Of a stretch of 64,000 nt of DNA, positions 5,722 through 36,120 are shown piece by piece (within the stretch, counting starts at the first letter, position 1; every line of letters starts with the position of its first letter). This DNA is from Methylomonas sp. 11b. Its GTDB lineage: Bacteria > Pseudomonadota > Gammaproteobacteria > Methylococcales > Methylomonadaceae. The translations under genes and the position numbers were made by a program. The DNA lies in contig NZ_KI911557.1 in the NCBI RefSeq assembly GCF_000515215.1, positions 434,001 through 498,000 of the forward strand. Reading direction: 5' to 3'. The notes beneath the pieces were generated by a model. That model searched no databases, was not told the origin of the DNA, and was given only the letters and a program-made list of their open reading frames with translations.

Positions 5722-5782
5722 ACGTTCATTCCACGTCCCCCATGATGGTTTTCTTCCTCGTTGTTTAAAAGGCAGGTCGCCC

Positions 5783-18952: not shown

Positions 18953-19985
18953 TAAGCGAGTGACCCTACCACTTTGCCCTTTCAGGCAAAGTCTGTTTAA
19001 TGGCGTCGATTTGCTCCGGTGTCAAAGGTAGCAATTCATCAATGCGGCTATTGGGCCAGATCGGCAGTTTTTCCAACGTCTCCTTTAACCATGCTACCGG
19101 GTTTAGACCATTAAGCTTGGCAGTACCGAGTAAGGTTTGAATAGCGGCGGCACGTTGCCCAGCACGTTCGGAACCGGTAAATAGCCAGTTCTTTTTGCCC
19201 AGCGCAATGGGTCGGATGCAGTTTTCCACCGGGTTATTGTCGATGGGCAGATGCCCTGTTTCCGCATAGCGGATCAACGCTGGCCAACGTTTTAAAGTGT
19301 AGTCCAAGGCTTTGGCAGACGCACCGCCGTGGGCGGTGCCGATACGGGTTTTCATGAGCCAGTCATGGAAGGCTCGCAGTTGTGGCAGACTCTTTTCCAC
19401 ACGCAATTGCCGACGGGCTTCGATGCTCATTTCTTTGCCTTCGGCTTCGATGGCATAGAGCGCACCGATGCGCTGCAAGACTTCAAAGGCCATGGGACTT
19501 TGATTGGCTTGATGTAAATCGAAGAACTTTCGGCGCGCATGGGCCAGACAAGCCAGCTCGATGCAAGCTTCGCCGTTGCCCGTGTTCGCGAACAGGGCTT
19601 TGTAGCCGACATAGTCATCGACCATCAGGTGACCTTTCCAGGTGCCCAGAAACTGACGAGCATGTTCGCCGCCTCGGCCCTTTTGGTAGTCGAAGACGAT
19701 GAGTCGCGGTCCGGCATCCGCCAGATCGTTGCTGCGATAGGCCCAGAGATAAGCTTTCTTGGTTTTGCCGCTGCCGGGGTCGAGTTGCGCCACCGGCGTT
19801 TCGTCGGCATGCAAGGTATTGCCTTGCAGTAGGTGCCCAGTCAGACGATCTACCAAGGGTTGTAGCGCCACACCGACGCGTCCGACCCAGTCGGCCAAGG
19901 TTGACCGGGACAAGATGAGGTTGTCACGGGCGGCGATTTGCTCCAGGCGATAGAGCGGCAGATGGTCCTGATATTTGCCGATCAT
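18953..19985 (-). mobile_element. IS66-family insertion sequence remnant
   Basis: Left terminus GTAAGCG at 18953 lies 13 bp beyond the transposase stop, as in intact IS66 elements. The element contains only the C-terminal part of the DDE transposase and ends abruptly at the Tn3-type inverted repeat at 19986. Accessory genes tnpA and tnpB and the other terminus are absent from the window. Confidence 0.85.
18966..19985 (-). pseudogene. IS66 transposase (TnpC), N-terminally truncated
   Basis: 339 residues remain of a protein usually about 500-530 long. The remainder begins in the conserved KYQDHLPLYRLEQI block and includes HADETPVAQLDPG (first Asp), the LMVDDYVGYKALF region, and NPVENCIRPIALGKKNWLF with the catalytic Glu and the IS66 C-terminal domain. 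The zinc-finger and DNA-binding N-terminus is lost where the Tn3-family repeat begins. It cannot be a functional transposase. Confidence 0.88.
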
Positions 19986-20025
19986 GGGGTTTGAGGCGCA
20001 GTGGAACGGAAAACCGGGTTAGCGC
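19986..20025 (+). repeat. Tn3-family terminal inverted repeat, left end
   Basis: Starts GGGGTTTGAGGCGCAG and includes TGGAACGGAAAACC, close to the canonical Tn3 38-bp repeat (GGGGTCTGACGCTCAGTG...). It lies 77 bp beyond the tnpA stop. It pairs with 35647-35686, with mismatches only at positions 16 and 31 of 40. Confidence 0.95.
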
Positions 20026-20102
20026 TTATCATGATGCGCCTTTGGGGTGGCCGCATTCGAAATTGTAAGCATCGATTTTGCTGCAAGCAGCGCTAACCAC
20101 CT

Positions 20103-23096
20103 TCAGTTATCTTTGCCCTCTTGATCGCGTAATGGTCTTAGCTCTCCGTTCGCGACCGATTCCGGTACCGAAAACGAATACCGTCCAAACATGTTGATAT
20201 GTTCATGCTGTAAAGGCGACAATCGGCTGACATCTTCGTCACTAACCGGATAACCTTCCATTCGAAGTTGGTTCAATGCGGCCTCCATATAAATGGTGTT
20301 CCATAACACAATCATATTCAGCACAAGGCCGAGAGCCCCCAATTGATCTTCTTGGCCTTCCCGATAATGTTGACGTAACTCGCCGCGTTTGCCGTGGAAA
20401 ACTGCACGGGCTACGCTGTGACGACCTTCTCCTCGATTTAGCTGGGTCAGAGTACTCCGGCGCATGGCCTCGTCATCAATATACATTAAGGTGTGAAGCG
20501 TCTTCTCAATACGCCCGAATTCGGCAATAGCCTGGGCCAATCGAGTTGGCCTATCGCCTACTTGAAGTGTACGCATGATGCCGGAGGCGGGAACTCTGCC
20601 CAGCTTAAGCGAGCCCGCCAACCGTAACATATCGTCCCAATGTGGCGTTATTTTCTTCAAACTGAGTTGATGCTTTGAGATCGAATTGAGTAAACCGTAG
20701 TCAGCTTTGGGATCAATCCGCCAAAAGCGGGTGCCGCCGACATCGGCTAAACGCGGACAGAATCGGTAACCGAGCAGGCGAAACAGGCCAAACACCACGT
20801 CGCTGTATGCACCGGTGTCAGTCATGATCTGCGTCGGTTGTAGATCGGTTTGCTGCTCAAGCACCACCGCTAATAAGATTAAGCTGTCCCGTAGCGTACC
20901 CGGCACCAGGATGGCATTCAGTCCGGAAAACTGGTTCGATAGTAGATTGTACCAAGTCACACCGCGACCGGTACCATAGTATTTTGGGTTGGGGCCGGCA
21001 TGAACAGTACGCACAGGGACAACGAAACGCATGCCATCCGCTGAGGCTACCTCGCCGCCACCCCAGACATTCGCCAACGTAAGGCGGCTTTGTGCCGCGA
21101 CCAGTGTGGCGTTGGCTGCGGTTAAGGTGTCGTCACGAATGTAGTTCTGGTCGACCCAGGATAACCGGTCACGTTTAAGCGCCGTTACATCCCCTCGAAT
21201 CAATGGCTCCAATCCGGTATTACAGGCTTCGGCCATCAACACCGCGCACAAACTGACATGGAGATCGGTGGCACGTGCCGAGCGTTCCGAGACATGGGTA
21301 AAAGCATCGGTGAAATTCGTGCGTGCGGCAATCTCCAGCATGAGCTCCGGCAGCTCAACTCGCGGCAACATATTGGCAACTTTATCGCGTAGCGCGGTCA
21401 GCGAGGCCGGTTCGTCCAATTTGTCCAGTGGACTGAGTACCAGTTCTTGTTTGTCGCCAATCGTATCGAATCGCACTGCTTGATTGTCAGGCAGTCTGGC
21501 GGCAACGGCTCGGTAAGTAATATCCAGCTCGTTGGTTATGGCCGTGAGCGTAGGCTCTGGGGCAGCGGATAATCCGAGCGTTCGGCAGATCAGTGGCCGC
21601 GTAGTTTCCCATTCTTCGCCTTTAAGCAGACCGGCACGCGGATCGGCATAACGCCAACTGGGCGCAACGAACACGTCCCGCCGGCGTAATGCGGTTTGTA
21701 ATTTCTCCAGCACACAAAAGGTGTAGGCGTGTAAATCGAATGAATCATCATCGCCCTGCACATGTTTTTGCCACGACTTGTCAGCCAATTCGAGCGGCGC
21801 ATCGTTTCCGGGTTTCTTCAGGGTGATATTGGTGCGTAGCCAATCAAAAGCGGCTACGACTGGCTCGCCATCAGAGTTTGCCCCGAAGCGGATATGCTCA
21901 AGCAGTGCGGGCAAAAACCGACGCACCGTTTTGTACTTGGCATCAAACTCATGATAATACACGTCGTCAGCGGGCCGAATTAGGGCAATCACACCATCAA
22001 CGGCTTGCGTCAGTGCGTCACGCGGAATTCTCTCAAACAATTGGGAACGCAGCTCAACATCGGGGAGCCCCGTATCCAACAGAATTTGGCAGGCGCCGGC
22101 TAAGGTTGCAGCCGCTTTATCGAGGTCTTTCAGCGTGCGAAGCCGCGCTTTTTTATCGGCTTTGATGGCGGCATTAAACAGGTCGCGTAGTAGCGCTTCC
22201 AATACTTCCAGCGCATCGTCTTGCGCAGTGGCCTCCAAGCAATGCACAAAGGCAACCAGTGTAGCCAGTCGGCGCTGATGCGGCAAACGCAATATTGCAC
22301 TTACTTTGGCGGTACTCGCGTATCTGGCCAAGGCCGCCAAGCGCGTCGTCGGAATGTGAGCCACTGACAATTTAATGCCAAGTTGGCGTACCGAATGTAG
22401 TCGAAGCAAAGCTTGTATCAGCGATGGGCCGCTAATCATCACCGGCCCAGTCCGCAAGCGATCCAATTGTGAATTACGATTGCCGTCTGCTATCAGCAAA
22501 AGCTTTTCAAGCCCTGCTTGCTGTCCACTACTGATGCCACGGCACAGCGATTGCCATAGTCGCTTCTCCACCCGACTGCGCAGACGGGCGATGTAACGTT
22601 CGAGGGTACTATAGCCTGGCAGCAAAACCTTATGCGTTACCAGCCAGGTAGTTGTTCGCTCGAACAGCACACTAGGCCGGTCAGTACCCGTCCAGCACAA
22701 AGAATATAACCAGCGAGTGAGACGAAAACCGACTTGAGGCTCGGTAATTTCGACATAGCCATAACAAGTACGGATTTCTGTCGCATGTTGCAATCGCTGT
22801 TCACCGAGGCTGTACGCCCGCAGACTATCCGTGATCGTAAGGCCCAGTTGCTTGGCTAGCGTTTGCATGACCGGAACGGGTATATCCAGCGGGTCGTCCA
22901 GGAAAGTACCCAAGTAGCGAACGGTGCAAAGTTGAGCGGCGAAACCAAACCGGTTGTGATCACCGCGCTTTTTGGCGATCAGCGCATGAGCAGCGTCATC
23001 AAGATGAAAGTAACGGGCCAAGTCATCACCTGATAAAGTCGCGGTAAAGCGGCCATAATTTTCACGCTGTTCGTTGGGCAGAAAGCCGACAGGCAT
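20103..23096 (-). CDS. tnpA: Tn3-family transposase TnpA
   Basis: 997 residues, full length for the family. The N-terminus (FLPNEQRENYGRF) is the DUF4158 DNA-binding region. The C-terminal third carries the DDE catalytic core, including QIMTDTGAYSDVVFGLF and, near the end, RHSVARAVFHGKRGELRQHYREGQEDQLGAL with LVLNMIVLWNT. It is replicative: TnpA binds the 38-40-bp end repeats and forms a cointegrate that TnpR resolves. No breaks are visible, so it is probably active. The promoter presumably lies in the 63-bp gap after tnpR or further up in the res region. Confidence 0.95.
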   Translation of the reverse strand: MPVGFLPNEQRENYGRFTATLSGDDLARYFHLDDAAHALIAKKRGDHNRFGFAAQLCTVRYLGTFLDDPLDIPVPVMQTLAKQLGLTITDSLRAYSLGEQRLQHATEIRTCYGYVEITEPQVGFRLTRWLYSLCWTGTDRPSVLFERTTTWLVTHKVLLPGYSTLERYIARLRSRVEKRLWQSLCRGISSGQQAGLEKLLLIADGNRNSQLDRLRTGPVMISGPSLIQALLRLHSVRQLGIKLSVAHIPTTRLAALARYASTAKVSAILRLPHQRRLATLVAFVHCLEATAQDDALEVLEALLRDLFNAAIKADKKARLRTLKDLDKAAATLAGACQILLDTGLPDVELRSQLFERIPRDALTQAVDGVIALIRPADDVYYHEFDAKYKTVRRFLPALLEHIRFGANSDGEPVVAAFDWLRTNITLKKPGNDAPLELADKSWQKHVQGDDDSFDLHAYTFCVLEKLQTALRRRDVFVAPSWRYADPRAGLLKGEEWETTRPLICRTLGLSAAPEPTLTAITNELDITYRAVAARLPDNQAVRFDTIGDKQELVLSPLDKLDEPASLTALRDKVANMLPRVELPELMLEIAARTNFTDAFTHVSERSARATDLHVSLCAVLMAEACNTGLEPLIRGDVTALKRDRLSWVDQNYIRDDTLTAANATLVAAQSRLTLANVWGGGEVASADGMRFVVPVRTVHAGPNPKYYGTGRGVTWYNLLSNQFSGLNAILVPGTLRDSLILLAVVLEQQTDLQPTQIMTDTGAYSDVVFGLFRLLGYRFCPRLADVGGTRFWRIDPKADYGLLNSISKHQLSLKKITPHWDDMLRLAGSLKLGRVPASGIMRTLQVGDRPTRLAQAIAEFGRIEKTLHTLMYIDDEAMRRSTLTQLNRGEGRHSVARAVFHGKRGELRQHYREGQEDQLGALGLVLNMIVLWNTIYMEAALNQLRMEGYPVSDEDVSRLSPLQHEHINMFGRYSFSVPESVANGELRPLRDQEGKDN

Positions 23097-23159
23097 ATGA
23101 TTTAACTTTACCTATAATGGTTGGCGCTGGCCTTGCGATATCACCAGATTAAACGTCTT

Positions 23160-23777
23160 CTAACCACTGGCCAGCAACTTTACCCCATCCGGCCGCAGTT
23201 CTCCCTTGGGTGAAACATGTCGATACAATGTTTGCCGGGTAATGCTCAGTTCCTTACAGAGATTTCCTACCGTTGTTTCCGGCTGCCCCATCGCCGCCAT
23301 AGCCAGCCGTAGTTTGGCAGGCGTCATCTTAAAGGGTCTACCGCCTTTCCTACCGCGTGCTCGGGCTGACGCCAAACCGGCTACAGTTCTTTCTGAAATC
23401 AATTCACGCTCAAACTCAGACAGCGCGGCAAAAATGCCAAAGACCAGCTTGCCGGCAGCGGTTGTCGTGTCAATAGCAGCGCCGTGGCCGGTTAAAACCT
23501 TGAGACCAACACCTCTAATGGTTAGATCATGTACCGTGTTAATCAAATGTCGGAGATCACGTCCCAGTCGATCAAGTTTCCACACCAGTAAAGTGTCTCC
23601 TTCACGCAATGCCTTGAGACAGGCAGCTAAACCGGGGCGGTCTTCTCGTTTTCCCGATGCATGATCTTCATAAAGGTGCTTTGAATCGACACCGGCCAGC
23701 ATTAACGCATCACGCTGCAAATCGCATGCCTGAGAACCGTCTGCTTTTGAAACCCGCATGTAACCAATTAACATCAT
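23160..23777 (-). CDS. tnpR: Tn3-family serine resolvase TnpR
   Basis: 205 residues. The catalytic Ser lies in the N-terminal YMRVSKADGSQ motif, followed by WKLDRLGRDLRHL (conserved Arg residues), the FERELISERT helix and a C-terminal helix-turn-helix (GNLCKELSITRQTLYRHV). It resolves cointegrates at res and often represses its own operon. Two adjacent methionine codons could serve as start (23777 or 23774). The res sites start 8 bp upstream, as expected. Confidence 0.94.
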   Translation of the reverse strand: MMLIGYMRVSKADGSQACDLQRDALMLAGVDSKHLYEDHASGKREDRPGLAACLKALREGDTLLVWKLDRLGRDLRHLINTVHDLTIRGVGLKVLTGHGAAIDTTTAAGKLVFGIFAALSEFERELISERTVAGLASARARGRKGGRPFKMTPAKLRLAMAAMGQPETTVGNLCKELSITRQTLYRHVSPKGELRPDGVKLLASG

Positions 23778-23784
23778 TCCGCCT

Positions 23785-23935
23785 TGTCACTTATACGTTC
23801 GATTAAGTGACAGGGCTAAAGAATATTCTTTACTGCGCCAAAATTGTCACTTAAACCGTCATTTATAGTATGACATGCAAAAGGTATGAAATTAATATTT
23901 AGTGACAAAAATCGCACCGGAAATTCGATGTTGGC
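23785..23935. promoter_or_regulatory. res site of the Tn3-family transposon
   Basis: Subsite with perfect TGTCACTTA/TAAGTGACA arms at 23785-23812, a second one with TGTCA/TGACA ends at 23845-23875, and a probable third that begins with TTAGTGACA near 23899. Three resolvase-binding subsites upstream of tnpR are the normal res organisation. Promoters of tnpR are expected here. From there to 24034 I see only one further TGTCAC half-site near 23979. Confidence 0.75.
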
Positions 23936-24034
23936 AAAAATTAGCGCGGCTCACGCTTGATTTCAAATCATCAGAAAATTGTCACAAGGTCAATTTAGAC
24001 CAAGGGAATAGCGCAGTCGTCAGTACATGGCACA

Positions 24035-24646
24035 TCAGACTCGCAACAATCCACGCTGTATTTGAATAGACAACCAAGCGGCCGCGATCCCGAGCAGCCA
24101 ACGACCGCCCAATTCGCAAAACACCATCCAGTCCACATACCACGGAATAGCACGAGGACTACTGCCTGACTCGGCGATGTCTTGAAACGATATTTCTAAT
24201 TTGCCTAATAGCTGTGCCGGCAAAGTGGCCATAACCACCAGAACTGCAGCCAACAAACCCAAACCGACCAACAATAATCGCTGCCGCCAGCCTTGCACCG
24301 GCCAAACCAGCAGAATCGAACCTTCAATCACTAGCGGCACAAAGCTATGCAGCAAATGGGCGGATGATTTCAACTCGGTGCCAGGCGGAATGAAATGATT
24401 GGCGTTCAAGTAAACAGGCCTAAGCACCCAGGCCGACAACTCAATCGAATAATCCAATTGAGATTGCACTGATTTCAGTAAGTTTAAGCTTGATGATAGG
24501 TCGGGAGCCATTGAGATCATGACCGCCTTAAGCAGCGGGAACAGCCCTTTTGCCAGCCATTCCCCAAAATACAAAACCAAGCCGGACAACACTAGCCAGG
24601 CCAGCAGACCTTTCATGGTCAGAACAAACAGCTCACGCCGGTTCAT
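24035..24646 (-). CDS. Exosortase-associated membrane protein
   Basis: 203 residues from the ATG at 24646, which overlaps the end of the exosortase gene by 14 bp. There are about four membrane segments: LLAWLVLSGLVLYFGEWLA near the start, LVIEGSILLVW, LLLVGLGLLAAVLVVMATLPA and LLGIAAAWLSI at the end. Between the first two lies a periplasm-sized loop. It resembles the small membrane proteins encoded right after exosortase H (annotated as exosortase H-associated), although I cannot confirm the subfamily. It is the last gene of the transposon cargo and probably a partner of the sorting enzyme. Confidence 0.65.
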   Translation of the reverse strand: MNRRELFVLTMKGLLAWLVLSGLVLYFGEWLAKGLFPLLKAVMISMAPDLSSSLNLLKSVQSQLDYSIELSAWVLRPVYLNANHFIPPGTELKSSAHLLHSFVPLVIEGSILLVWPVQGWRQRLLLVGLGLLAAVLVVMATLPAQLLGKLEISFQDIAESGSSPRAIPWYVDWMVFCELGGRWLLGIAAAWLSIQIQRGLLRV

Positions 24647-25205
24647 GACTTTGATTCGTTGAACCGAACGCCCACCAGGCAAAATAAAAACACCCCAACA
24701 CCACCATTAAGGTCGGTGCCACATAGGTATGAATCAGCTGAAACCAGCCGGGTTGGTAAGCGATGACGAAATACAACGCAAAGATACGCAGTAGATTGAG
24801 GCTATAAATCAAACCGATGCCCAGCAATAAACCGAGCAGTTTCCGCTTTAATCCGCACGGAAACACCAGAACGGCGGACACCACCAAAAACAACACACCG
24901 GCACCGTCACAGCCACGCACGATCTCCAGATCGGCCTTGGCCGAAAGCAAATGATTCTGCTTGGCCGATACATGCTCCAACGGAGCCAGCCAGTTGACCA
25001 GATCGGCGCAAATTGCCACCACGCCGTGGTAGTAGATGACATTGGCAAACAGGCCGACTGGAATCTTAAAATAGGCGTAGTCGAGTAGCGCGTAGCAGGC
25101 TACGAATAGTATGAATTGCAACCTCTCATGTCGGCCATATAGGCGACTAGCCTCAGAAGGGAGGTTGCATGAAAACAATAGCGTTACCTTCCATGTCGTG
25201 TTCAA
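24633..25205 (-). CDS. Exosortase/archaeosortase-family transpeptidase
   Basis: A 190-residue multi-pass membrane protein with the full exosortase triad: Cys99 in IVRGCDGAG, Arg140 in LNLLRIF and His159 in QLIHTYVAP. Exosortases cleave C-terminal sorting signals in the inner membrane and are thought to attach the protein to another molecule. The short size and the following membrane partner suggest an XrtH- or XrtM-like subtype; I am not sure which. A likely substrate with a matching C-terminal tail is encoded at the other end of the same cargo (34092-35333). The start is uncertain: TTG at 25205 or a later TTG near residue 29. Confidence 0.85.
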   Translation of the reverse strand: MNTTWKVTLLFSCNLPSEASRLYGRHERLQFILFVACYALLDYAYFKIPVGLFANVIYYHGVVAICADLVNWLAPLEHVSAKQNHLLSAKADLEIVRGCDGAGVLFLVVSAVLVFPCGLKRKLLGLLLGIGLIYSLNLLRIFALYFVIAYQPGWFQLIHTYVAPTLMVVLGCFYFAWWAFGSTNQSHEPA

Positions 25206-25258
25206 GACGTCCAGGCTTTTGGTGGACTCGATGCTGGCATCCTATAAGCCTTATCGAG

Positions 25259-26083
25259 TTATTTCAAAAGCTCAAACGACTTCTGATATTCCTTTGATAA
25301 TGCTGAATATCTCTGTGCCAATTCAGGTGCCTGTCCTAATTCAACGCCTTGTGTCAGCAAGTACCTTACTATTTTGTCACTTCCATGCAATACAGCCATT
25401 TCGATCAAAGACCATCCATAACCATCACGAGTATTAAGATCAATTGATGAGGGTAAGGCGGCAGCAAACTTTTCTGGATCGTTTTTTCGCAAAGATTTCC
25501 CCAGTTCAGATTCGTCGGGTCGTCTAAGATTTTGCTCTCGCGGCGATCTGAGGTCTTGTACCAAGCGTCCGCCAGAATCTAGGTATTTCGCTGCCTCCGG
25601 CCCGACATAATTAATACCGATATGCTCGAAACGCTTACGGATTGATTTTTTGAAGGCGTTGAAGATCGCAAGAGAATCCGGATGCATGGAATTCGTGGAC
25701 AGGCATCCCTTAATAAAGCCTTCTCCCCACTCTTCGCTTTTGTGAAAGCCGCAAGGGTCCAAAAATACAAAGTCGTAGTTTGGAGGGTCACCAATCTGAG
25801 AGGGCATAAACCCGTACTTTTCGGGAGTTTGCCGTTTATCCCAAAATTTGAATGGCAGCTCAGCGTTAACTGGCAATACGAAAAACCTAGTCTCACAAGA
25901 ACTTGGCCATTTACAAAAATCAAAATCAGGTACTTCTAAAGGCGATTTATAAACTGGAAAATCCGGTTCAAGCCGCCATTCATCCACAACATATTTCAGG
26001 TCAAATTGCGATGAAATATCCGATATGACAAGAGCATAATCATTTTTTGTTGCAAAATGATAGATGGAATGACCCCTAGACAT
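25259..26083 (-). CDS. Candidate immunity protein with ankyrin repeat
   Basis: 274 residues, soluble, with no signal. The first 190 residues match nothing I know. The last third holds an ankyrin-like unit (DGYGWSLIEMAVLHGSDKIVRYLLTQG). The ATG follows an AGGTAA ribosome site and lies 13 bp after the RHS gene stop. A small soluble protein directly behind an RHS gene with a variable C-terminus is the standard position of the cognate immunity gene, and ankyrin-type immunity proteins are known. Immunity is therefore inferred from position and fold. The 53-bp gap to the exosortase gene keeps it in the same cargo operon. Confidence 0.65.
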   Translation of the reverse strand: MSRGHSIYHFATKNDYALVISDISSQFDLKYVVDEWRLEPDFPVYKSPLEVPDFDFCKWPSSCETRFFVLPVNAELPFKFWDKRQTPEKYGFMPSQIGDPPNYDFVFLDPCGFHKSEEWGEGFIKGCLSTNSMHPDSLAIFNAFKKSIRKRFEHIGINYVGPEAAKYLDSGGRLVQDLRSPREQNLRRPDESELGKSLRKNDPEKFAAALPSSIDLNTRDGYGWSLIEMAVLHGSDKIVRYLLTQGVELGQAPELAQRYSALSKEYQKSFELLK

Positions 26084-26096
26084 TACTTGATTACCT

Positions 26097-29000
26097 TTAC
26101 TTTGAATACACAGATCGCATCATATTGGTATTGGCTTTGTTTGGGTAGAGCACGAAGCCACCATTGGCTGATGAGCTCCAAAAATTGGAAGAATTCCAAT
26201 TGATGGAACTTGTATTGGGAACAATGTCGCTGCCAGCTCCAACCGAGCCCACACCACCTGGCGTTAGAAAATCAATCACAAAATTGCCGACATCATTCCA
26301 CGTAATTCCTGTCCCGAAAATACCGCTACTGGCGTTGGCACTGCCCGCTGCTGTGGCACCGATAACGCCGCCGGTGACTTTTGAAACCATTTGAAATTCG
26401 CTATCCGGACGAAGATTTTGAATTTTAACACCTGCCGCAATTTCTCTGGCTACTGGCGTAATACCATCGGCGCGCGTAGTCACGGTGTTAATGATCAGCT
26501 CTTTTCCTGTTTGAATATTTTTTAGCACAATATCGCCATAGGCTCCACCTTTAGCGCCTCCAGTAGCAGGATTGGGAATTAAAACTTCTGCTTTGCCGCC
26601 CCCACTTTTCAGCACCCAGTCACCAGTAGCGAGATATTCATCCGCAATCGCTTTGTTCAGCGCCCTGGTTTCAGCAGATCCTAATCGGCCACCTAATTTT
26701 GCAAGTCCTGAAACGATATTGGAAATTAGGTCCAATCCCGTTGGATCATTGGCGTTAACCGGGTTGTTATCGACATAGGCATAGAAATTAATTCCAGCCG
26801 CAAACCCCTTCGGGTCTTCCGAGATAAACCGCCCAGTATTGGGATCATAATACCTGGCCCGATAATAATAAAACCCGCTCTCCCCATCGGCTTCCCGGCC
26901 GGTATATTTCTGCGCGGCGTTGCTGGTACCGGTTGAGCTTAGGTTGCCGCCGAAGGCGGTGTAGCTTTGGGTGGCCTGGATTTGGCCGTCGTGGGCACTT
27001 TGCCCCAACACAGATTGCAAGGCGTCGTGGTGGTAGGTACTGTTGACCATCCTGTTGTTGGCGTCGCGGTGGTAGCCGTTGACCACTTCGTCGATCACCG
27101 TGCCGCGCAGGTATTGGTCGCGTAACGCGCCGTTACTCTCGTAAATGGCTTCCAGGTGTTCGCCTTCCAGGTAGTAACGGCTGGTCAGGCTGGCGGCTTT
27201 TTGGATGCGGTAGCCGGATGGATCGTAGCGGTATTGGCTGGTGTTGATTTGTTTGACGCGGTTGTTGGCGTCCCAAGTTAAAGTTAGGCTGCGGTTGCCG
27301 CTGACGTTGGTGAGGCTGCCGTTGGCATCGTATTGGTAGCTTTCGAAGACGGTACCTGTTGGGCTGCCGGTGCGGATGTCTTTGAGCTGGTTGGCGGCAT
27401 CGACGTTGTAATATTTGACGCTGCCGGCCTTTGTATAGGTCTTGCGGTTGCCGACCTTGTCGTAGCTGAAGCTTTCATCGTTGGCGGTACCGGGGTAGTC
27501 GGCGCTGAGCAAACGATATGCCGGGTCGTAGCCGAAGGTAGTGGTACCCGTGACTTGGCCGCTGGCGTTATGGTCGATCTGAGTCAAAATGTTGCCGAGC
27601 CGGTCACGCGTGTAGCTCGTATCGTTAACCAGCTGGCCGGTAAGCGTGGTATTTTTCAGTTGCGTCAAGCGGCCCGCTGCGTCCCAGCCGTAGCGGGTTT
27701 GGGCGCCGTTACTGAGGATGCGGTCCAGTAACCGGCCCGCGCCGTCGTAATGGTAACTGACTTGCAGGTATGCAGGGTTGGTCTCGGCCACCAGACGATT
27801 GGCATTGTCGTACTGGTAGTCGGTGATGTCACCCTGGTAGTCGGTTTTGGTGTCTATATTACCGACCGGGTCGTAAGCCCAACTTAGGGTTTTGCTGGAG
27901 CGGCTGTCGGTTTTGCTTTTGAGCTGGTGTTTGGCGGTGTAGGTATACGTATAGGTGACATCGGCGTTTTGGCTTTGGATCAGATCGCCAAATAGGTCGT
28001 AGGTATAGACTTCCTGACTGCTGTCGATTAAATGATCGGTTTGGGTCAGACGGTTCAGACGGTCGTAGGTGTGCCGGCTAACCTGGCCCTTGCGGTCGGT
28101 GGTCTCGATCAGGTTGCCGGCTTCGTCGTAGACGGACAGCTGGGTCTTGTCGGTCGGGGTTTCGATGAGCGGATCGACGGTTTCGGTCAAGCGTCCCAGG
28201 TCGTCGTAATGGAAGGCAGTGGTATGGTTTTCGGCATCGGTAACTGTAAGGCGGTTGCCGAGCAGATCGTAACTGTAGGCGGTGATGTTGCCTTGGGCAT
28301 CCTTGCTTTGCTTGAGGCGATTTAACTCGTCATATTGCCGGCTTTCGCTGCAGCCGTCGGCGTTGAGGGGTTGATGGCCGGGGTCGCCGACATTGCTGAT
28401 CGCATTGGCGTCGATGAGGCAGGTTTGGTTGCCGTTGGCGTCGTAAGAAAAACTGGTCTCGAAGCCCAAAGGATCGACGACCTTGGTCAAGCGACCGACG
28501 GCGTCGTACTCGCTTTTGACGGTTTCGCCGTTGTCGTTGGTGACGGCAATCGCTTCGCCCCGTAGATTGTATTTCGTTTCAGTGCGATGGCCGTTGCCGT
28601 CGATGGCCGCCGTTTTACGATTCATCGCGTCGTATTCGTATTTTGTGGAATGGCCGTTAGCATCGATCTGGCTGCTTAGATTGCCGGCTTCATCGTAACC
28701 GAATTGGCTGGTTTTGCCGAACACATCGGTGGTAGCGATGCGGCGGTCGGCGGCATCGTACTGATGGGTGGCGTCAGTACAGATGACGTAGCCGCCGCTG
28801 GGAGCCGCACAGCCCACTTTGGCTACGCTGGTGGGATACCAAGTCTTTTCCTGAGCCACTTGGCCGTTGGCGTCGAACACGGTTTCCTGGATGCGGCCTT
28901 CGGGATCGGTGACCTTGACGGGCCGGTCCAGCGAGTCATAGGTATAGGTGGTGGTTAATGCCAACAATGTGGCGTTGGTCGGCGAAGTCCGACGATAGAA

Positions 29001-30746
29001 TGTTTCGGTTTGTTTCCGGCCCAGACTGTCATAGGTGAAGTGGGTATGCAGGGTCTGCCCGGACCCGGTGACATTGGTATCAGCCAGCTTCAAGCCGTTA
29101 CTGCCCGCCTCGTAAGTGTAGGCGGTAACCCGTTTGCGGACGGTGTTGCCGGGTATCAGATACTCGGTCAGCGTCGCCAGAGTGCCGTCGGCATTCCAGC
29201 AATAATCGTGCAGTTTGACGTTGGCTTGGCCGTTCAGCGTAGACAGGGTCAGCGCTTGCGGCTTACCGTTCAAGGCGCAGCCGGCCGTGCTGGTATAAAA
29301 ACTGGTGGTGATGACGGTGCCGCGCTTGTCCTTGACCGTGGCTACTTGATCGTAAGGACCGTAAGTCGTGTCGACGGTTTGATTTAAGGCGTCTTGCTCG
29401 CGGGAAACGTTGCCGCCGGTGTCGGAGGCACCGCTCAAGGCTTTGTCGAGCCGGTAGCTGTATTGCGTGGCATAACCCAGCGCGTCATACTTTTTATTGC
29501 GAATACCGTCGCTTTGGTTTTCGAACAGCAATAAACCGCCGTCGGCTTCTTCCAGTTTGGTCATCCGGCCGTCAGCATCATAACTGTAGCGGCGGATGCC
29601 GCCGCGTGGGTCGGTGACGCGGGTGGTTTTGCGGTAGAGGTCGTAGTCCAGGGTTTCCGTGTGGTTCAACGCATTGTGGTAATTGAAGGCCCGACCGTTT
29701 TGGTAGTAATTGAAGGTGGTTTTGACGGTCTGGCTGTTGCGTTGCAGCGGCTGAACAATCTCGTGCAGCAAATGCCCGGCTTGATAGGTATAGCTGACGA
29801 CTTGGTTCAGGGGGTTGGTTTTGCCGGTCAGATCGCTGCCGCTAAAGTTATAACGCCATTGACGTCCCGTCCAATCGGTAATGTCTTTGAGATGATTGTC
29901 GGCATAATAGGTGAACACCAGACCGCTACGACCGCTAATACCCAAATTATCGGTCACCGTGGACAGTCGCCCGTTGGCATCATAAGTCAGGGTCAAACGG
30001 TCGCCCCAAGAATTATCGATGAATTTCAAACGAGCAGTGAGGTTGGGCGTGGTTTTTAAATTACCGCTAACCGTCTCAAAGGTGTATTTAGTGCCGTTTC
30101 TGAAGGTCAGCGTGTGCTGACCCGCGGCGCTGTCCAAGGTCAATGTGTCGTAGACGCCTTTGGGGGTGGTCACTGCATAACTGGTTTCATTAACCAAAAA
30201 GTTCTGCTCGCCGCCGCGTTCGTCGGTATAGGTGATCGACGAGGTTTTATTGTTGGCGTTTTCCGATTTCTGTATGCTGTTGCAATTGGGACAAATCCCG
30301 AAATCGTTGGATTCCAGACGCATGCCGTAGGAATGCACCCAACCGAAACCCAGTCCACGATCAACCGTCGTAGCACTGGGCGCGCTGTTATAGGTGCGGG
30401 TGAACAAGTAGTTAAGCGCATTGCGCCCGCGAATCTGAATATCGGTTTCGTCGTGGTAATTGTTGCCGGAGACCGTTGACACCGGGTCCGCCGTCGATGG
30501 CGTCTTGACTTGATCGTTATTGACTGTGCCGACCAGTATCTTGTCATTGAACTGATCGTTATTGAAAGTTGGGGAGACCGATATGGCACCGGTATTAATG
30601 GCGGTAGCCGGTTCAAGCGCTACACGGCCATCGACGTAACCGCCCGCGAATATGGATTCCGCCAACATCAAGTTTAAAACGGCGAACGTTGCCACCATCC
30701 AGTGGCGACGAATAGGTCGGTTAATCGGGTTGCGGTTCCGGTCCAT
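26097..30746 (-). CDS. RHS-repeat polymorphic toxin-like protein with N-terminal signal
   Basis: 1549 residues. The N-terminus has a signal-like stretch (MVATFAVLNLMLAESIFAGG). A DUF6531-type segment follows, then dozens of YD/RHS repeats (YDxxG motifs) that build the hollow shell. The RHS-associated core ends ARYYDPNTGRFISEDP...DPTGL. After that come about 210 non-repeat residues, a variable C-terminal domain with GAYGDIVLKN and TGKELIINTVTTR, possibly a restriction-endonuclease-like toxin. There is no PAAR or VgrG feature, so export is probably by Sec rather than type VI secretion. ATG 30746 is chosen just after the upstream stop; GTG 30761 is an alternative. Confidence 0.9.
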   Translation of the reverse strand: MDRNRNPINRPIRRHWMVATFAVLNLMLAESIFAGGYVDGRVALEPATAINTGAISVSPTFNNDQFNDKILVGTVNNDQVKTPSTADPVSTVSGNNYHDETDIQIRGRNALNYLFTRTYNSAPSATTVDRGLGFGWVHSYGMRLESNDFGICPNCNSIQKSENANNKTSSITYTDERGGEQNFLVNETSYAVTTPKGVYDTLTLDSAAGQHTLTFRNGTKYTFETVSGNLKTTPNLTARLKFIDNSWGDRLTLTYDANGRLSTVTDNLGISGRSGLVFTYYADNHLKDITDWTGRQWRYNFSGSDLTGKTNPLNQVVSYTYQAGHLLHEIVQPLQRNSQTVKTTFNYYQNGRAFNYHNALNHTETLDYDLYRKTTRVTDPRGGIRRYSYDADGRMTKLEEADGGLLLFENQSDGIRNKKYDALGYATQYSYRLDKALSGASDTGGNVSREQDALNQTVDTTYGPYDQVATVKDKRGTVITTSFYTSTAGCALNGKPQALTLSTLNGQANVKLHDYCWNADGTLATLTEYLIPGNTVRKRVTAYTYEAGSNGLKLADTNVTGSGQTLHTHFTYDSLGRKQTETFYRRTSPTNATLLALTTTYTYDSLDRPVKVTDPEGRIQETVFDANGQVAQEKTWYPTSVAKVGCAAPSGGYVICTDATHQYDAADRRIATTDVFGKTSQFGYDEAGNLSSQIDANGHSTKYEYDAMNRKTAAIDGNGHRTETKYNLRGEAIAVTNDNGETVKSEYDAVGRLTKVVDPLGFETSFSYDANGNQTCLIDANAISNVGDPGHQPLNADGCSESRQYDELNRLKQSKDAQGNITAYSYDLLGNRLTVTDAENHTTAFHYDDLGRLTETVDPLIETPTDKTQLSVYDEAGNLIETTDRKGQVSRHTYDRLNRLTQTDHLIDSSQEVYTYDLFGDLIQSQNADVTYTYTYTAKHQLKSKTDSRSSKTLSWAYDPVGNIDTKTDYQGDITDYQYDNANRLVAETNPAYLQVSYHYDGAGRLLDRILSNGAQTRYGWDAAGRLTQLKNTTLTGQLVNDTSYTRDRLGNILTQIDHNASGQVTGTTTFGYDPAYRLLSADYPGTANDESFSYDKVGNRKTYTKAGSVKYYNVDAANQLKDIRTGSPTGTVFESYQYDANGSLTNVSGNRSLTLTWDANNRVKQINTSQYRYDPSGYRIQKAASLTSRYYLEGEHLEAIYESNGALRDQYLRGTVIDEVVNGYHRDANNRMVNSTYHHDALQSVLGQSAHDGQIQATQSYTAFGGNLSSTGTSNAAQKYTGREADGESGFYYYRARYYDPNTGRFISEDPKGFAAGINFYAYVDNNPVNANDPTGLDLISNIVSGLAKLGGRLGSAETRALNKAIADEYLATGDWVLKSGGGKAEVLIPNPATGGAKGGAYGDIVLKNIQTGKELIINTVTTRADGITPVAREIAAGVKIQNLRPDSEFQMVSKVTGGVIGATAAGSANASSGIFGTGITWNDVGNFVIDFLTPGGVGSVGAGSDIVPNTSSINWNSSNFWSSSANGGFVLYPNKANTNMMRSVYSK

Positions 30747-30750
30747 GTTG

Positions 30751-33387
30751 TTAATTACCACGGTTGAGGATTTCGAAAGACAGCGAGTTTAGCCGTCCGG
30801 TCGAAGTCGTATACACTTTGCGGATGTCGACCTCGAAATGGTTACTGGGGCCAGCGACTAAAGTGGCGGGCAAGGTATATTCGACCCAGGATTGACTGGT
30901 ATCGCGCAACAATAAATCGTTGCGGATGCCAGCGACGGTCGTAGTCGAGTAAACATTGGCCGCGAGGGTTTTGGAACGGTAGGCAAAATCGGTGCTGATA
31001 AAGCCTTGCGCAGCATCCAGATAATTAAAAAAAGCTGTATTCGTACCGCCTCGGATGCTGTTAAAACTGTTTTGCATGAGTACCAGAGCGGAATCAATGG
31101 TCGTACCATCTCCCCAACTGGCTCCGCAGGCGCCACCGGCGGTCAAAGTGGTCGAACCGCCATAGGTGGTCTTCCAACCATTGAGGGTGTTTTCGTTTTG
31201 ATCGCAGTTAGTGAGGTAGCCATTCCAATTGTCGTTGTAATAAGAAAGCGTTCCTAGTCGTGAATCGGTTGCGCCGGCAGGCGCTTTTTTCAGCATATCG
31301 AACCCCTCTAGCGCGGTTGTCGTCGTATGCGACCAACTGTTTGGCGTAGTGTTGAATAAGGTGCGCGATGCCAGCGAAAAAGGCGAAGGTGCCGAAGCCC
31401 CGAAACCGACCGAATTGAGAAAAGCCGGTACGGTATTGGTGGTCGTATCGCGTTTGACGTTGACAAGGCTAGAGCCGCCCGCCAAGGCCATCTGGATGCC
31501 GCGCACCGTCGATACGGCATCGTAGCCGGTTAATTCCTGCCAGGTTTCGTGTTCCAACGACGAGGAAATATGGCCCAGGAATTCGAACTGGCGGTTCGAG
31601 TAATTAAGGGCTGCCTCATGGCTGCGGTACGAGCCACCGATGGTAATACCCTTCATGTCGATTAACAAACCACCCGGCAGGACGGAAAATGCGGTGCCGT
31701 CGATGTATTCAACATCGTACACAGAGCTGACCACACCGAGAAAACCGATGATTGGCGTCTTGGTTTTCATCAGATGATCAGCTCGCTCGAACTGTTCGCG
31801 CTGGTTGGCATAATACTGGGTAGCCGCAACATATAGCAGACCGCCGGTTAGGGCATCCAGAGCCGGTTTGTTTTGTAAAAGCGGTAAGTCTGAAGCGTCC
31901 CAGCCATTGTTTGTGGTATCCACATAGGGTGTGCAGTTCATACCGCTGGTATAATCGCAAGCCTGCCCATTACTGCCGGGGTCGGCGGGATTAAAAACGA
32001 TCTTGTAGTTGACGTTATCGGCCAACAGTTGATCCGCCGCCCGATGCACTTGCGACCAGTTAGACGATTCGCCGCCGGTGGCGATCAAATAATAACCGCC
32101 GATGATGCCGGAATAGGTCGCTGTAATGGTTCGATCATTGGTACCTCCACTGGGATCGGGGGAACCGTCCATCGTCACCGTAATGGTATAGGGGTTACCG
32201 ATGGCGGGGGTATAGCCGGAGATAGTGCCGTTACCCGACAGCGGACGGGCTATTTCAGTACCGCCTAATCGGGTGACCATATTGGGGATATTACCTGGCG
32301 GCGGAAACTCGGTAGTGAGCGTCAAGCGCCTGGTATTCAGTTCCGCTAATAAGGCATTGCCCGCGCCCAGATTAACGGTCAGCGTGCCGCCGCCGGATAG
32401 TGGGGCGACCATATAGATGCTGATCGACAATCGCTTACCCCATTTTTTCGGCTCGCTAGCGGGTACGGCCGCATCGTGCAGGGCCACCGAATCGTAGCGC
32501 CGAATGCTGCCTATTACCGGGTAAGGCAGAGAGGCAGGTAATAACCCATCTCGAATTTCGACAATTTGCCCGGCATCGGCGACATCCTCCAGGGTTTTAC
32601 CGGGATTGCTGCTACGCAACCAGGTTGCAATCTGTTCTTCCAGAATGGTCAGCGGGTTTTTATCTTTACGCAGCTGTGTATCGGTCGCGGAATCCTTAAT
32701 GGCATTGTAATAGCCGGTATAGTCGAAACTCAGAGCATTGTAGGGATCGATATTCAAACCATTGTAGGTCTTTTGTTTAAAACTGCCATCCAATGGAATC
32801 CAATTACAACGTGACACATTTGCCGGCAGCGCGCAGTCTACCGACGAGTTGGTCGTCAACCCCCGGTATTGATCGAAAGGCACTAACACTTCGGCCCACA
32901 CGTGTTCCAAATCCACCGTACTGCGATCAGCAGCCAGCGTGACACCTTGAATGCCCTGGTCTTTCAACACTTGCACAGCGACATCGAGATTGCTAATTCT
33001 CAGCCAGTTGGTCAACTGAGTTGCGGGTAGCCGGACGATGCCAACAGCATAGCGGGCCGGGATGTTCTGCGAACGCAGCATGGCAATCAACGCGGTAGCG
33101 ATGTCGACATCGCTACCGCGTTGCCCCATAAAGGTATTGATCGACCCCGAACGCGAACCGTGGTAAGCGGAAAACTCAAATTGGTTACGCACATACTCAT
33201 AAATGGCAACCGCGTTTTTTAATTGAGCTGATTTATCAACTAAAGGTTGGGCCTCGCTACCTGTGAAAATGATTTCAGGCGTTTCGGATTGCAGCGCAAA
33301 TGCCTCGGTTACGGGTAAAACGGTGGCTAAACCCAAGGAAATGGCGAATGAGCGAAGTATTTGCGGCAAATACCGGCGTGGCAACAT
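30751..33387 (-). CDS. Secreted transglutaminase-fold protein lacking the catalytic cysteine
   Basis: 878 residues with a signal peptide (ILRSFAISLGLATVLPVTEAFA). Residues 60-205 form a transglutaminase-like core: DIATALIAMLRSQNIPARYAVG, LEHVWAEV (His162) and WIPLDGSF (Asp200). The position of the nucleophilic Cys (G-x-C-x-D-x-A) reads GSDVDIA, so Cys is replaced by Asp93. The remaining 670 residues are a long beta-rich region of unknown type. Its stop lies 4 bp before the RHS start, so the two are tightly linked. It may process, scaffold or present the RHS protein, but enzymatic cross-linking by the usual mechanism is unlikely. Confidence 0.8.
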   Translation of the reverse strand: MLPRRYLPQILRSFAISLGLATVLPVTEAFALQSETPEIIFTGSEAQPLVDKSAQLKNAVAIYEYVRNQFEFSAYHGSRSGSINTFMGQRGSDVDIATALIAMLRSQNIPARYAVGIVRLPATQLTNWLRISNLDVAVQVLKDQGIQGVTLAADRSTVDLEHVWAEVLVPFDQYRGLTTNSSVDCALPANVSRCNWIPLDGSFKQKTYNGLNIDPYNALSFDYTGYYNAIKDSATDTQLRKDKNPLTILEEQIATWLRSSNPGKTLEDVADAGQIVEIRDGLLPASLPYPVIGSIRRYDSVALHDAAVPASEPKKWGKRLSISIYMVAPLSGGGTLTVNLGAGNALLAELNTRRLTLTTEFPPPGNIPNMVTRLGGTEIARPLSGNGTISGYTPAIGNPYTITVTMDGSPDPSGGTNDRTITATYSGIIGGYYLIATGGESSNWSQVHRAADQLLADNVNYKIVFNPADPGSNGQACDYTSGMNCTPYVDTTNNGWDASDLPLLQNKPALDALTGGLLYVAATQYYANQREQFERADHLMKTKTPIIGFLGVVSSVYDVEYIDGTAFSVLPGGLLIDMKGITIGGSYRSHEAALNYSNRQFEFLGHISSSLEHETWQELTGYDAVSTVRGIQMALAGGSSLVNVKRDTTTNTVPAFLNSVGFGASAPSPFSLASRTLFNTTPNSWSHTTTTALEGFDMLKKAPAGATDSRLGTLSYYNDNWNGYLTNCDQNENTLNGWKTTYGGSTTLTAGGACGASWGDGTTIDSALVLMQNSFNSIRGGTNTAFFNYLDAAQGFISTDFAYRSKTLAANVYSTTTVAGIRNDLLLRDTSQSWVEYTLPATLVAGPSNHFEVDIRKVYTTSTGRLNSLSFEILNRGN

Positions 33388-33399
33388 GACGATTCCTTG

Positions 33400-34092
33400 T
33401 TAGTGATTGGATTTGTTTTTACGGCTTTGTTTGGAGGTTGGTTTGGATGCTTCGGCTTCTTCCCAGGGCATGGCTTGAATGGTTGGGGTTTTGCTAGCCA
33501 GCGGCAAGTCAATGACGCCGTGTTTTTCGAATTTGAGCCGCTCGCGAAAATCTCGTAATAGAGTGACTCGGTCTGTGTTGGTGTCGCTGATGGTTGCTTC
33601 GAGCTTGTCCGCCCATTGTTCGAAAAGTCGCCCTCGCTGCTCACCCACTGGAAAGCCTGCGGAATACAGTTCGTGTTTTGCGGCGGCCTTGGTCCGGCTT
33701 TGCCATTGGCTTGCGTCCTGACGAAGCTTTGTCACCACATCCCAGGCTTGCGTTCTTGCAGTTGCGCGTAAGGCGTCGCTTGTTGCTTGCTGGTTTGGTG
33801 CTACCACGGGGGCTTTATTTCCCAGGCTGATGCGGACTGTTTGCGATGGCAATGCTTCTGCTGCGATTAATTTATCCAAGGTTGTACGTAACTGTACCAG
33901 TTGCTCTTTTTCCGGCGACTCTTCCTGTACCTTATTTTTAGCTTGTAGCACCTGGCGCCCAATCAAGCGGATGGCATCCAGTTTTTCCGGAGGCAGTGCG
34001 TGGCTGGCTGTGTTTGCCTCCGTTTGACTGGCAGACTTTGAGTCTGCATGCGCCGTAAAGGCTGCCAGAAGCAAACATAACATAATGCGCAT
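33400..34092 (-). CDS. Small secreted protein of unknown function
   Basis: 230 residues from the second ATG of the cluster (34092), spaced 7 bases from GGAG. This start overlaps the preceding stop as TAATG. The N-terminus is a clear signal peptide (MRIMLCLLLAAFTAHA). The mature part is charged, mostly helical and rich in Gln, Lys and Glu, and ends with a basic tail (KPTSKQSRKNKSNH). No domain is recognised. Tight coupling on both sides (12 bp to the next gene) makes it a core component of the cargo operon. Confidence 0.75.
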   Translation of the reverse strand: MRIMLCLLLAAFTAHADSKSASQTEANTASHALPPEKLDAIRLIGRQVLQAKNKVQEESPEKEQLVQLRTTLDKLIAAEALPSQTVRISLGNKAPVVAPNQQATSDALRATARTQAWDVVTKLRQDASQWQSRTKAAAKHELYSAGFPVGEQRGRLFEQWADKLEATISDTNTDRVTLLRDFRERLKFEKHGVIDLPLASKTPTIQAMPWEEAEASKPTSKQSRKNKSNH

Positions 34093-35333
34093 TACCATAC
34101 TCCTTTGCTGATAGACGAACGACGGCAATAACCCATGATGGCAAACAACCCCAGAGCCATCAGGAGTTGGCCCAACACCGGCACCGCCGGCACCTGTACT
34201 GGTGCGCCAGGGTTGCCTGGATTTCCGGTCCAGTCCAGCGACGCCAGTTGCGTCAAACCGGATAATGGGGTTATGTTGGCAAGATTGTTATTGTTAAGAT
34301 TGGCGCTGGCCAGATTGACGGCCCATTCCAGCCCGGTTAGATCGGCAATGCCCTGATTGACGGCGGTCAGGTTAGTCAACTGCGCTAGTTCGCCTCGGTT
34401 CAGATAATCCATGGAGTTACGCCCCAATGCCAGATTGATCGCCTTGCGCAAGGCTTGGTCGGGGATGGTGACGGGCGTGGATTGAACCGATGAATTGGCG
34501 GCAGTGGCCACTGCCCGCGTCGCTAATGCGGTGGTATAAGGATCGGCATCCCAGTTGCCGTCCAGTCCCTGGCTGGCAGTTAGTCGCGACAGAAAGGTGG
34601 TGGCAAGGGTGTTGTTGCCGGCCTCTTGCGCGGCCTGTGCTGCCAGCGCCTGAATAACCGTCGGCGCAGTTGAGTTGACTATTGTATTGAGCGTACTTAG
34701 GCCGTTACTTATAACGCTGGCAAGTGTGCCATCCTGCACGGTGTAACGGCTTAGTGCTTGAATCACGAGCGCAGTAACGGCCGGGTCACTACTGCCGGCA
34801 TTACCAACCGCCCAGCCTTGATCGTTAGTGCCGGTACGCTGGCTACTTTTCAGAAAATCGAGAGCTGGCTGTACTTGTATACTGCTGCCCAGATCGGCAT
34901 AAGCGATCAGTGCCAGAGCGGTATCGATGGCCGAGCTGGTATAGATCGGAGACAACCCCCAGCCAGAAAAGACGGTGCCGTTACGCGTTTGGGCGTTTTG
35001 CAAATAGGTCAACGCATAACCGAGATCATCGCCATGACTATTGAGTGTGCCTGCACGACGAGAAATTAGATCGACGTTGCCACTATCGTGGCTTTCCAGC
35101 CAGGTAAGGCCGGCGAAGAAGGCTTTTTGTCGTTTGTATGCGGTACCAAGTGCGCGAACAACGGCACTGGTATAAACCGGCTGAATGTCTGCGCTTGCTC
35201 CCCAGCTGCCATCGATGTTCTGTTGCCCCGCTAACCATTGAGCACCTTTCGCCGTCGGTTGATCGTAAATTCCCGCATGGACCGAAAGGCTAAGCGACAG
35301 TAGGCATAATGCGAATGCTCTGCAAAATATCAT
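34092..35333 (-). CDS. Repeat protein with exosortase-type C-terminal sorting signal
   Basis: 413 residues. A signal peptide covers residues 1-20 (FALCLLSLSLSVHA). Residues 25-275 contain repeats of the terpene-cyclase/prenyltransferase alpha-toroid type (AQWLAGQQNIDGSWG, then DQGWAVG and LDGNWDADPY). Residues 318-370 are a short leucine-rich repeat block. Residues 381-405 form a tripartite tail: VPAVPVLG, then a hydrophobic helix (QLLMALGLFAIMGY) and CRR. That is the layout of an IPTL/PEP-CTERM-like exosortase substrate, and an exosortase is encoded in the same cargo. It is first in the operon. The enzyme fold is unlikely to act as a cyclase; display on the cell surface is inferred. Confidence 0.78.
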   Translation of the reverse strand: MIFCRAFALCLLSLSLSVHAGIYDQPTAKGAQWLAGQQNIDGSWGASADIQPVYTSAVVRALGTAYKRQKAFFAGLTWLESHDSGNVDLISRRAGTLNSHGDDLGYALTYLQNAQTRNGTVFSGWGLSPIYTSSAIDTALALIAYADLGSSIQVQPALDFLKSSQRTGTNDQGWAVGNAGSSDPAVTALVIQALSRYTVQDGTLASVISNGLSTLNTIVNSTAPTVIQALAAQAAQEAGNNTLATTFLSRLTASQGLDGNWDADPYTTALATRAVATAANSSVQSTPVTIPDQALRKAINLALGRNSMDYLNRGELAQLTNLTAVNQGIADLTGLEWAVNLASANLNNNNLANITPLSGLTQLASLDWTGNPGNPGAPVQVPAVPVLGQLLMALGLFAIMGYCRRSSISKGVW

Positions 35334-35646
35334 GGAATAACATCCCTTTTATTCTGGTTGCGAAACTCGGTTGTGGCTTGATGGCAATTACTTAATGGCC
35401 GCCGCTAACATGCCAAATATCGAGCATTACACTGAAAAATACAGGGGAAATGTGACGAATGTATTAAAGGCTAAAAATACATCATCAACTGAGCTGTTGG
35501 TGGGGAGTTTTGTTCACTGAAACACTGTCGACATTAGGCCGGAACGTAGCCCCGTCAGGCATTGAAGGAGCAATATGTCCTATTTTTAATGTATGAGGTA
35601 GCACCTGAAGTGGAGATGAATTTATCCTGACAGCCCATTAACATGG
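35334..35646. other. Upstream region of the transposon cargo operon
   Basis: 313 bp between the first cargo gene and the right inverted repeat. It is AT-richer than the genes and has no ORF that I trust. It should contain the cargo promoter. I could not single out a -35/-10 pair with confidence. Confidence 0.4.
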
Positions 35647-35686
35647 GCGCTAACTCGGTTTTCCGTTCCATTGCGCCTCAAACCCC
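35647..35686 (-). repeat. Tn3-family terminal inverted repeat, right end
   Basis: On the minus strand it starts GGGGTTTGAGGCGCAA and ends GTTAGCGC, with 38 of 40 matches to 19986-20025. The outer end is base 35686, followed by AAAAA. It supplies the last 12 codons of the truncated membrane-protein gene at 35650-36120. Confidence 0.95.
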
Positions 35687-36120
35687 AAAAATCCCGGCGA
35701 TTCGCTGTCCGGTTGTGCATAGACTTTATACACCGTCGGCCCGAAACCCAGCGCGTCGACTACCGTCAACACCACTACCGCCCAGAGTGGATCGGCGGTT
35801 AGATACCATGTCGGCAAAGCCGATAGGGCCGCCACAAAAAAGCCCCAGTCGCTATGGGTAATGGTCAAATCGCCCGGCCGCCGATAGGCCAGAAATGCCA
35901 CCAAGATGGTCAAACTGCCCGACACACCGATCGGCCAAGCACCGACGCCGCCGCGATCCGCGATTTGCGCCAGAAATACCACGAAGGTGGTGCAGCCCCA
36001 AATCACCCAGGAGAACACATGCGGCTGAACGGCGCCTTTAACGATAGCACGTATGTAGGGCAGCAATGTGCCGATGGTCAACGCAATCGCCATGGCACTG
36101 AGCACGGGTTTTAACGGCAT
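35650..36120 (-). pseudogene. Small multi-pass membrane protein, C-terminus cut by the transposon
   Basis: 156 residues from the ATG at 36120. Four to six hydrophobic segments are seen (VLSAMAIALTIGTLLPYI, VFSWVIWGCTTFVVFLAQ, VGSGSLTILVAFLAY-like, FFVAALSALPTWYL and LWAVVVLTVVDALGFGP). Its last 12 residues (EAQWNGKPS and those just before) are encoded by the transposon repeat, so the native end is lost. The missing piece is probably short and some function may persist. Family not identified; the fold is reminiscent of small PQ-loop or SemiSWEET-like carriers. Confidence 0.7.

Follow-up and report, generated by a model that had tools for sequence, protein, structure and literature searches.

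A 15.7-kb segment of the genome of Methylomonas sp. 11b is very probably a replicative transposon of the Tn3 family that carries as its cargo an operon encoding an XrtM exosortase and an RHS-repeat protein. The segment occupies positions 19986..35686 of the 64-kb stretch of DNA analysed here (the window), which corresponds to positions 434001-498000 of the 5.41-Mb single-contig genome. It is bounded by two 40-bp inverted repeats, one on the tnpA side (19986..20025, plus strand) and one on the cargo side (35647..35686, minus strand), which are identical at 38 of 40 positions and both begin with GGGG; Tn3-family elements typically have terminal inverted repeats of approximately 38-40 bp starting with this motif. 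Between the repeats, all on the minus strand, lie tnpA, tnpR, a res-like region and seven tightly packed co-directional open reading frames (24035-35333) that overlap or are separated by at most 53 bp. The frames of tnpA, tnpR and the cargo are undamaged, the transposition genes being free of stop codons. A BLAST search of 20 kb for inverted pairs with a length of 22 nt or more, a separation above 1 kb and E<=1e-3 returned these two ends only (E ~1e-12), and among the 25 further inverted pairs of at least 20 nt returned by a second repeat tool, the 24 listed were only 70-81% alike. Chance occurrence of the repeats was rejected on this E value and because both flanking genes are cut at the repeat. 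To the left, an IS66 transposase gene (18966..19985, minus strand; NF033517, matched from model position 97) has lost its N-terminal part to the element and breaks off at 19985, which is also where homology stops in four of eight compared IS66 loci, with three others stopping within 1 bp and one 20 bp short. To the right, a membrane-protein gene (35687..36150, minus strand) is cut at 35687, where homology ends in relatives L146 and L148, a third relative, L147, being matched only further inside; the homolog in genome G005 (L146) continues for approximately 45 codons past the break. Both ends also resemble those found beside related transposases, each being identical at 31 of 36 positions to an end on a Rhodanobacter plasmid and matching the two ends of the mercury element of Pseudomonas putida pKF715B at 22-24 of the first 27 bases, the latter diverging further in. 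Because the repeats match one another at 38 of 40 positions and both resemble ends beside related TnpAs, they belong to one element and are the true ends of one transposon. The first-pass annotation had proposed just such an arrangement, with 40-bp repeats enclosing tnpA, tnpR, res and seven cargo genes in 15.7 kb, and the repeats, the family matches and the two interrupted flanking genes bore it out; its own alternative, that the repeats came by chance from different transposons, did not hold.

The tnpA gene (20103..23096, minus strand) encodes a transposase of 997 amino acids that was assigned to the Tn3 family by NF033527 (1038 bits, cut-off 500) and PF01526 (501 bits); from residue 25 to residue 993 it shows homology to the Tn4430 transposase, for which a structure has been solved. 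Residues D687, D760 and E890, presumably the DDE triad by analogy with Tn4430, are invariant among eight aligned TnpAs. The tnpR gene (23160..23777, minus strand) encodes a serine resolvase (PF00239), and upstream of it lies the res-like region (23785..23985, no strand assigned), with TGTCAC/GTGACA motifs at 23785, 23807, 23845, 23902 and 23980; together they make up what appears to be a Tn3-type resolution system, in which the function of res is putative. Over 196 nt this region matches its counterpart in a second transposon, the FW.007 element (L057), at 76% identity, and the TnpRs of the two share 96% amino acid identity. The tnpR-res blocks of the two elements are 85% identical in DNA sequence but inverted relative to the cargo, and the TnpAs are only 24% identical; modular exchange of tnpR-res blocks between these elements would appear to have taken place. 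The window TnpR is, in addition, 91% identical to a resolvase encoded beside TniB/TniQ genes elsewhere in its own genome, at C1 ~89.9-94.4 kb (L083 5954-10432), where matches to a Mu-like transposase, TniB and TniQ were found, the resolvase gene standing at ~94 kb. This locus, a candidate element of the Tn5053/Tn402 type (tniA-tniB-tniQ-tniR), has a resolvase type in common with Tn3 elements and differs from the window element in that the transposase of the latter is a Tn3 TnpA.

In order of transcription, the cargo comprises genes for a squalene-cyclase-like protein with a sorting tail, a hypothetical protein, a transglutaminase-like protein, an RHS-repeat protein, a putative immunity protein, XrtM and a membrane protein for which we have coined the name xrtP (all on the minus strand). 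XrtM (24633..25205; 190 amino acids) scored 227.9 bits against TIGR04300, for which the cut-off is 125, and its residues Cys98, Arg139 and His158, presumably the exosortase catalytic residues, are invariant in all 18 aligned sequences. The xrtP product (24035..24682; 215 amino acids) gave no match in Pfam or NCBIfam and is the conserved membrane partner of XrtM, its gene adjoining that of XrtM in 23 of 28 loci searched by tblastn, 12 of which were aligned. The presumed XrtM substrate (34092..35333; 413 amino acids; SQHop_cyclase_C, 34.5 bits) ends in QVPAVP, a hydrophobic stretch and arginine, a type of tail seen at many XrtM loci, and is predicted to be cleaved at this tail. Of 35 XrtM contexts scanned automatically, 15 have a VPA-containing tail and a further three carry a VPT, VPD or VPF variant; VPA tails are also present at L054 and L077, which the scan filter had passed over, and at G593. 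A complete exosortase with Cys/Arg/His, its membrane partner and a presumed substrate with a tail, as first annotated, are all present. The structure model of the substrate was poor (mean predicted local distance difference test score, pLDDT, of 47), and a Foldseek search with it, in which complement C3d-type domains were the best matches (best E 9e-4), gives only a hint.

The RHS-repeat protein (26097..30761; 1554 amino acids) contains RHS_repeat, DUF6531 and Rhs_assc_core matches followed by a variable, toxin-like C-terminal part of 211 amino acids (26097-26732), and so has the repeats, Rhs core and variable C-terminus of RHS polymorphic toxins. This C-terminus is 91% identical to that encoded by a second RHS gene on the Methylomonas koyamae plasmid pLM6, and the gene that follows the latter encodes a product 73% identical over 190 amino acids to the putative immunity protein of the window (25259..26083; 274 amino acids), which is encoded directly after the RHS gene and matched Ank_3 weakly, below the cut-off (E=0.005). 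Of the remaining cargo proteins, the hypothetical protein (33400..34128; 242 amino acids) matched no family above the cut-off and is 50% identical to a counterpart at L054 and 32% identical to one at L077, and the transglutaminase-like protein (30751..33387; 878 amino acids) matched PF01841 (52.6 bits). The transglutaminase-like domain reads GSDVDIA (GSD), as it does at L054; active enzymes of the transglutaminase type have a GxC catalytic motif. At some XrtM loci the C-terminal domains of the RHS proteins otherwise differ but are followed by a conserved terminal tail of approximately 24 amino acids (window 26097-26171: GGFVLYPNKANTNMMRSVYSK). This tail was found at the window, L063, L054, L070, L077 and L101, in 3 of 151 related genomes and in three Methylomonas plasmid records. 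It is not hydrophobic and is therefore not expected to be an exosortase signal; our guesses are that it may be a secretion tag or an anchor for cassette exchange.

The same kind of cargo recurs on other Tn3 elements, a point that the first-pass annotation had proposed to check. Among 311 genomes of the order Methylococcales, 30 encode XrtM above its cut-off, with 39 loci in total, and the surroundings of 38 of these loci (all except G586; many are cut by contig ends) were examined with the end types and TnpAs known from this analysis. At five of the 38 loci, namely the window, L057, L064, L066 and G593, XrtM lies inside an inverted-repeat pair with a Tn3 TnpA, the latter four being in four other genomes. 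The TnpAs of these five element types are mutually 18.7-57.3% identical, that of G593 being represented in the comparison by a relative, L169, of 91-96% identity. The L064 element (genome G031) has 128-bp ends and the L066 element is from genome G049; both are flanked by clean 5-bp target-site duplications (ACAAT and TTTAA, respectively). A single protein of approximately 2470 amino acids combines the transglutaminase-like and RHS parts in L057, L064 and L066, and the RHS C-termini vary between elements, with an HNH domain in L066 and another kind common to L057 and L064. Four further loci have Tn3 remnants of unequal strength: two L064-type ends and a tnpA piece at L063, one end and tnpA pieces at L068, several ends and a full TnpA approximately 19 kb away at L070, and, at L077, a tnpA piece of 25 amino acids less than 1 kb from xrtP with another piece 22 kb away. 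One panel entry, L190, which matched L075, was dropped as a probable insertion-sequence gene, its matches coinciding with a 1.35-kb inverted pair there.

Two regularities were apparent among the five elements. In all of them xrtP ends beside tnpR, at a distance of 257 bp in the window, 20 bp in L057, 33 bp in L064, 23 bp in L066 and 199 bp in G593, and this is so with resolvases of differing types, which, L057 apart, are 33-35% identical to the window TnpR. Furthermore, ends of three Tn3 types are stacked one after another at the cargo side of the G031 element (L064 3772-4134), a pattern that successive carriage of the cargo by different transposons could have left. The 37 genomes of the genus (158.9 Mb) contain 23 XrtM loci and 37 near-full matches to Tn3 TnpA; the two occur no more than 5 kb apart in 3 cases, where 0.054 would be expected (Poisson P 2.5e-5), in a test that assumes random placement, which mobile regions violate; with a distance of 10 kb and all 56 TnpA matches, P was 6e-4. 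On a tree of XrtM and its partner (33 rows), the Tn3 label needs three changes, of which at least two are forced. This tree predates recognition of the G593 element, whose row (L088, the same locus) was labelled 'other'. A sample of the phylum comprising 397 genomes in addition to that of the window contained no XrtM at E<=1e-30. Searching named genomes gave weaker relatives outside clearly named Methylococcales, in a gammaproteobacterial metagenome-assembled genome (51%) and in Roseateles (36%), and a scan of viral contigs returned none. A separate observation concerns contig G032:C3 (133,659 bp), in which the region from ~50 to 115 kb contains perfect copies at a spacing of 20,158 bp; these hold a Tn3 element (TnpA 82% identical to that of L064) as well as orphan C-terminal pieces of RHS proteins that bear the conserved tail.

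Our current working hypothesis, drawn from the protein families concerned, is that the tail protein would be exported and then recognised through its QVPAVP terminus; XrtM, with its partner xrtP, would cut it, leaving it anchored to the cell surface. Export is likewise envisaged for the RHS and transglutaminase-like proteins, which have N-termini that look Sec-like by eye, and together with the tail protein they would form a surface-displayed polymorphic toxin, in which the variable RHS C-terminus would act as the toxin and the product of the next gene would neutralise it in the producer. With each transposition, the weapon would travel together with its immunity and display machinery. More broadly, and tentatively, since we rate it as possible rather than probable, we suggest that XrtM-RHS modules may be a dedicated mobile surface-weapon system of methanotrophs, captured repeatedly by several Tn3 lineages and handed from lineage to lineage, with the exosortase displaying RHS toxins by an undescribed route. 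Handing from one Tn3 lineage to the next is suggested by the three stacked end types in G031 and by the position of the module beside the resolvase gene in all five elements.

A number of observations weigh against these interpretations. Movement of the window element itself was not seen, because there is a single copy in its own genome and no TnpA more than 51% identical in the other 150 of the 151 genomes searched. Its 5-bp flanks differ (ATCAT and AAAAA), so that there is no target-site duplication. The L057 element sits in the tnpA of another transposon with 252 bp of the target missing, as judged from a related gene without interruption, and no duplication; in G593, which has 40-bp ends, the cargo lies between tnpR and a tnpA that is itself broken into pieces, and a duplication is again absent. 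On the tree, the rows labelled Tn3 do not form clear clusters, 58 of 500 shuffles requiring as few changes, and 29 of the 38 XrtM loci show no Tn3 TnpA or matching end nearby. In two of these 29, L062 and G649, inverted pairs of 42-140 bp span XrtM in the absence of TnpA and were not counted as Tn3; the presence of paired repeats is thus poor evidence by itself. As to the proposed weapon, the transglutaminase-like protein may be, rather than an active enzyme, a non-catalytic binding module, and the toxin end of the RHS protein gave no Pfam match. The RHS/immunity pair of the first-pass annotation stood as regards the RHS families, the variable C-terminus and the gene that follows, but the role of toxin is read from family and position and that of immunity (25259-26083) from position only.

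With 29 of 38 contexts showing no Tn3 sign in these searches, an exclusive link between Tn3 and XrtM was rejected, and the comparison supports Tn3 elements as a recurrent, not the sole, carrier of XrtM-RHS modules. These contexts also favour the view that the modules are ordinary island genes of Methylococcales, occasionally caught between Tn3 ends and without functional link to them, as does the occurrence of XrtM modules on plasmids of Methylomonas DH-1, M. koyamae LM6 and AM2-LC. Such passive hitch-hiking is doubtful, though it is the strongest of the alternatives. It sits uneasily with five transposon types bearing the same cargo and, within the assumption of random placement, with the excess of genus loci near TnpA. 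Nor does it predict the adjacency of xrtP and tnpR at 20-257 bp in five of five elements or the stacked ends of G031. A role for the RHS and transglutaminase-like proteins not as weapons but in structure or adhesion at the surface, with the exosortase-anchored protein as their base, is also unlikely, slightly more so. Their N-termini, Sec-like by eye, would suit such a function, as would the Pfam matches of the RHS protein, which are limited to RHS repeats and DUF6531 and leave its C-terminal end blank. Against it, the C-termini after the Rhs core vary, one has an HNH nuclease domain and each is followed by a different gene.

That the repeats were instead left by two separate insertions of related transposons, with chromosomal cargo between them, is very improbable: the missing duplication and the unrelated flanking genes would fit, but the repeats face each other in inverted orientation, agree at 38 of 40 positions and have a single tnpA and a single tnpR between them, tblastn found no second tnpA in the 64-kb window, the cargo was found with these flanks in none of 37 other contexts, and clean duplications flank two of the other elements with such cargo. 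The first-pass annotation had named as grounds for refutation the presence of the cargo at the same chromosomal locus without repeats, and this was not encountered within the fetched stretches. When the window outside the element was compared with the 37 XrtM contexts, the one match longer than 250 bp was a 291-bp piece away from the cargo, and a shared chromosomal locus was rejected at this threshold; two relatives carry the right-flank gene, one of them with the gene clearly running past the break. We class the window element as Tn3-family despite the missing 5-bp duplication, as this mark of insertion is removable by later rearrangement. Insertion of this copy was probably followed by rearrangement: one flank would have been replaced through recombination or through intramolecular transposition (adjacent deletion), with loss of the duplication, and we infer this as the simplest reading because both flanks are cut genes of different kinds.

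The closest known elements are Tn3 transposons on P. putida pKF715B and a Rhodanobacter denitrificans plasmid, which have TnpAs 68-70% identical to that of the window and similar ends; the pKF715B element carries mer genes, whereas the window element carries the exosortase-RHS operon. Passengers of Tn3 elements include resistance, catabolic and toxin-antitoxin genes, and we know of no exosortase or exosortase-RHS cargo on them. A search of the open-licence literature, incomplete and weak as a negative, found no description of XrtM, of an exosortase on Tn3 or of exosortases as mobile cargo, in keeping with the new cargo type first claimed for this locus, and we rate the element as a member of a known mobile-element family with a new class of cargo. 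For exosortases in combination with RHS repeats, the same search returned one paper, which concerns Apibacter. Compared with other XrtM systems (TIGR04300), the window is alike in its above-cut-off XrtM with Cys/Arg/His, VPA-type tail and membrane partner, and is distinct from the majority of examined loci in lying inside a Tn3-family transposon. With RHS polymorphic toxins it has in common the RHS repeats, the Rhs core and a C-terminus that varies, as does the gene behind it; the RHS proteins described here differ from them in the N-terminus, Sec-like by eye, the preceding or fused transglutaminase-like protein and the link to an exosortase. Exosortases have so far been treated as chromosomal systems for sorting surface proteins. 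Here a complete exosortase, a presumed substrate and an RHS toxin-like operon lie inside Tn3 elements, with at least five transposon types bearing such cargo. If our interpretation is true, cell-surface sorting would be a horizontally transferable trait and exosortases would be linked to competition between bacteria. The elements are also small natural units for asking what the XrtM exosortase does to its substrate.

Elsewhere in the window, approximately 11 kb to the left of the transposon, lie conjugation genes of the TraF, TraH and TraG types (20-8980). Beside them is a helicase gene, the best match of which was Zorya ZorD, below the cut-off.

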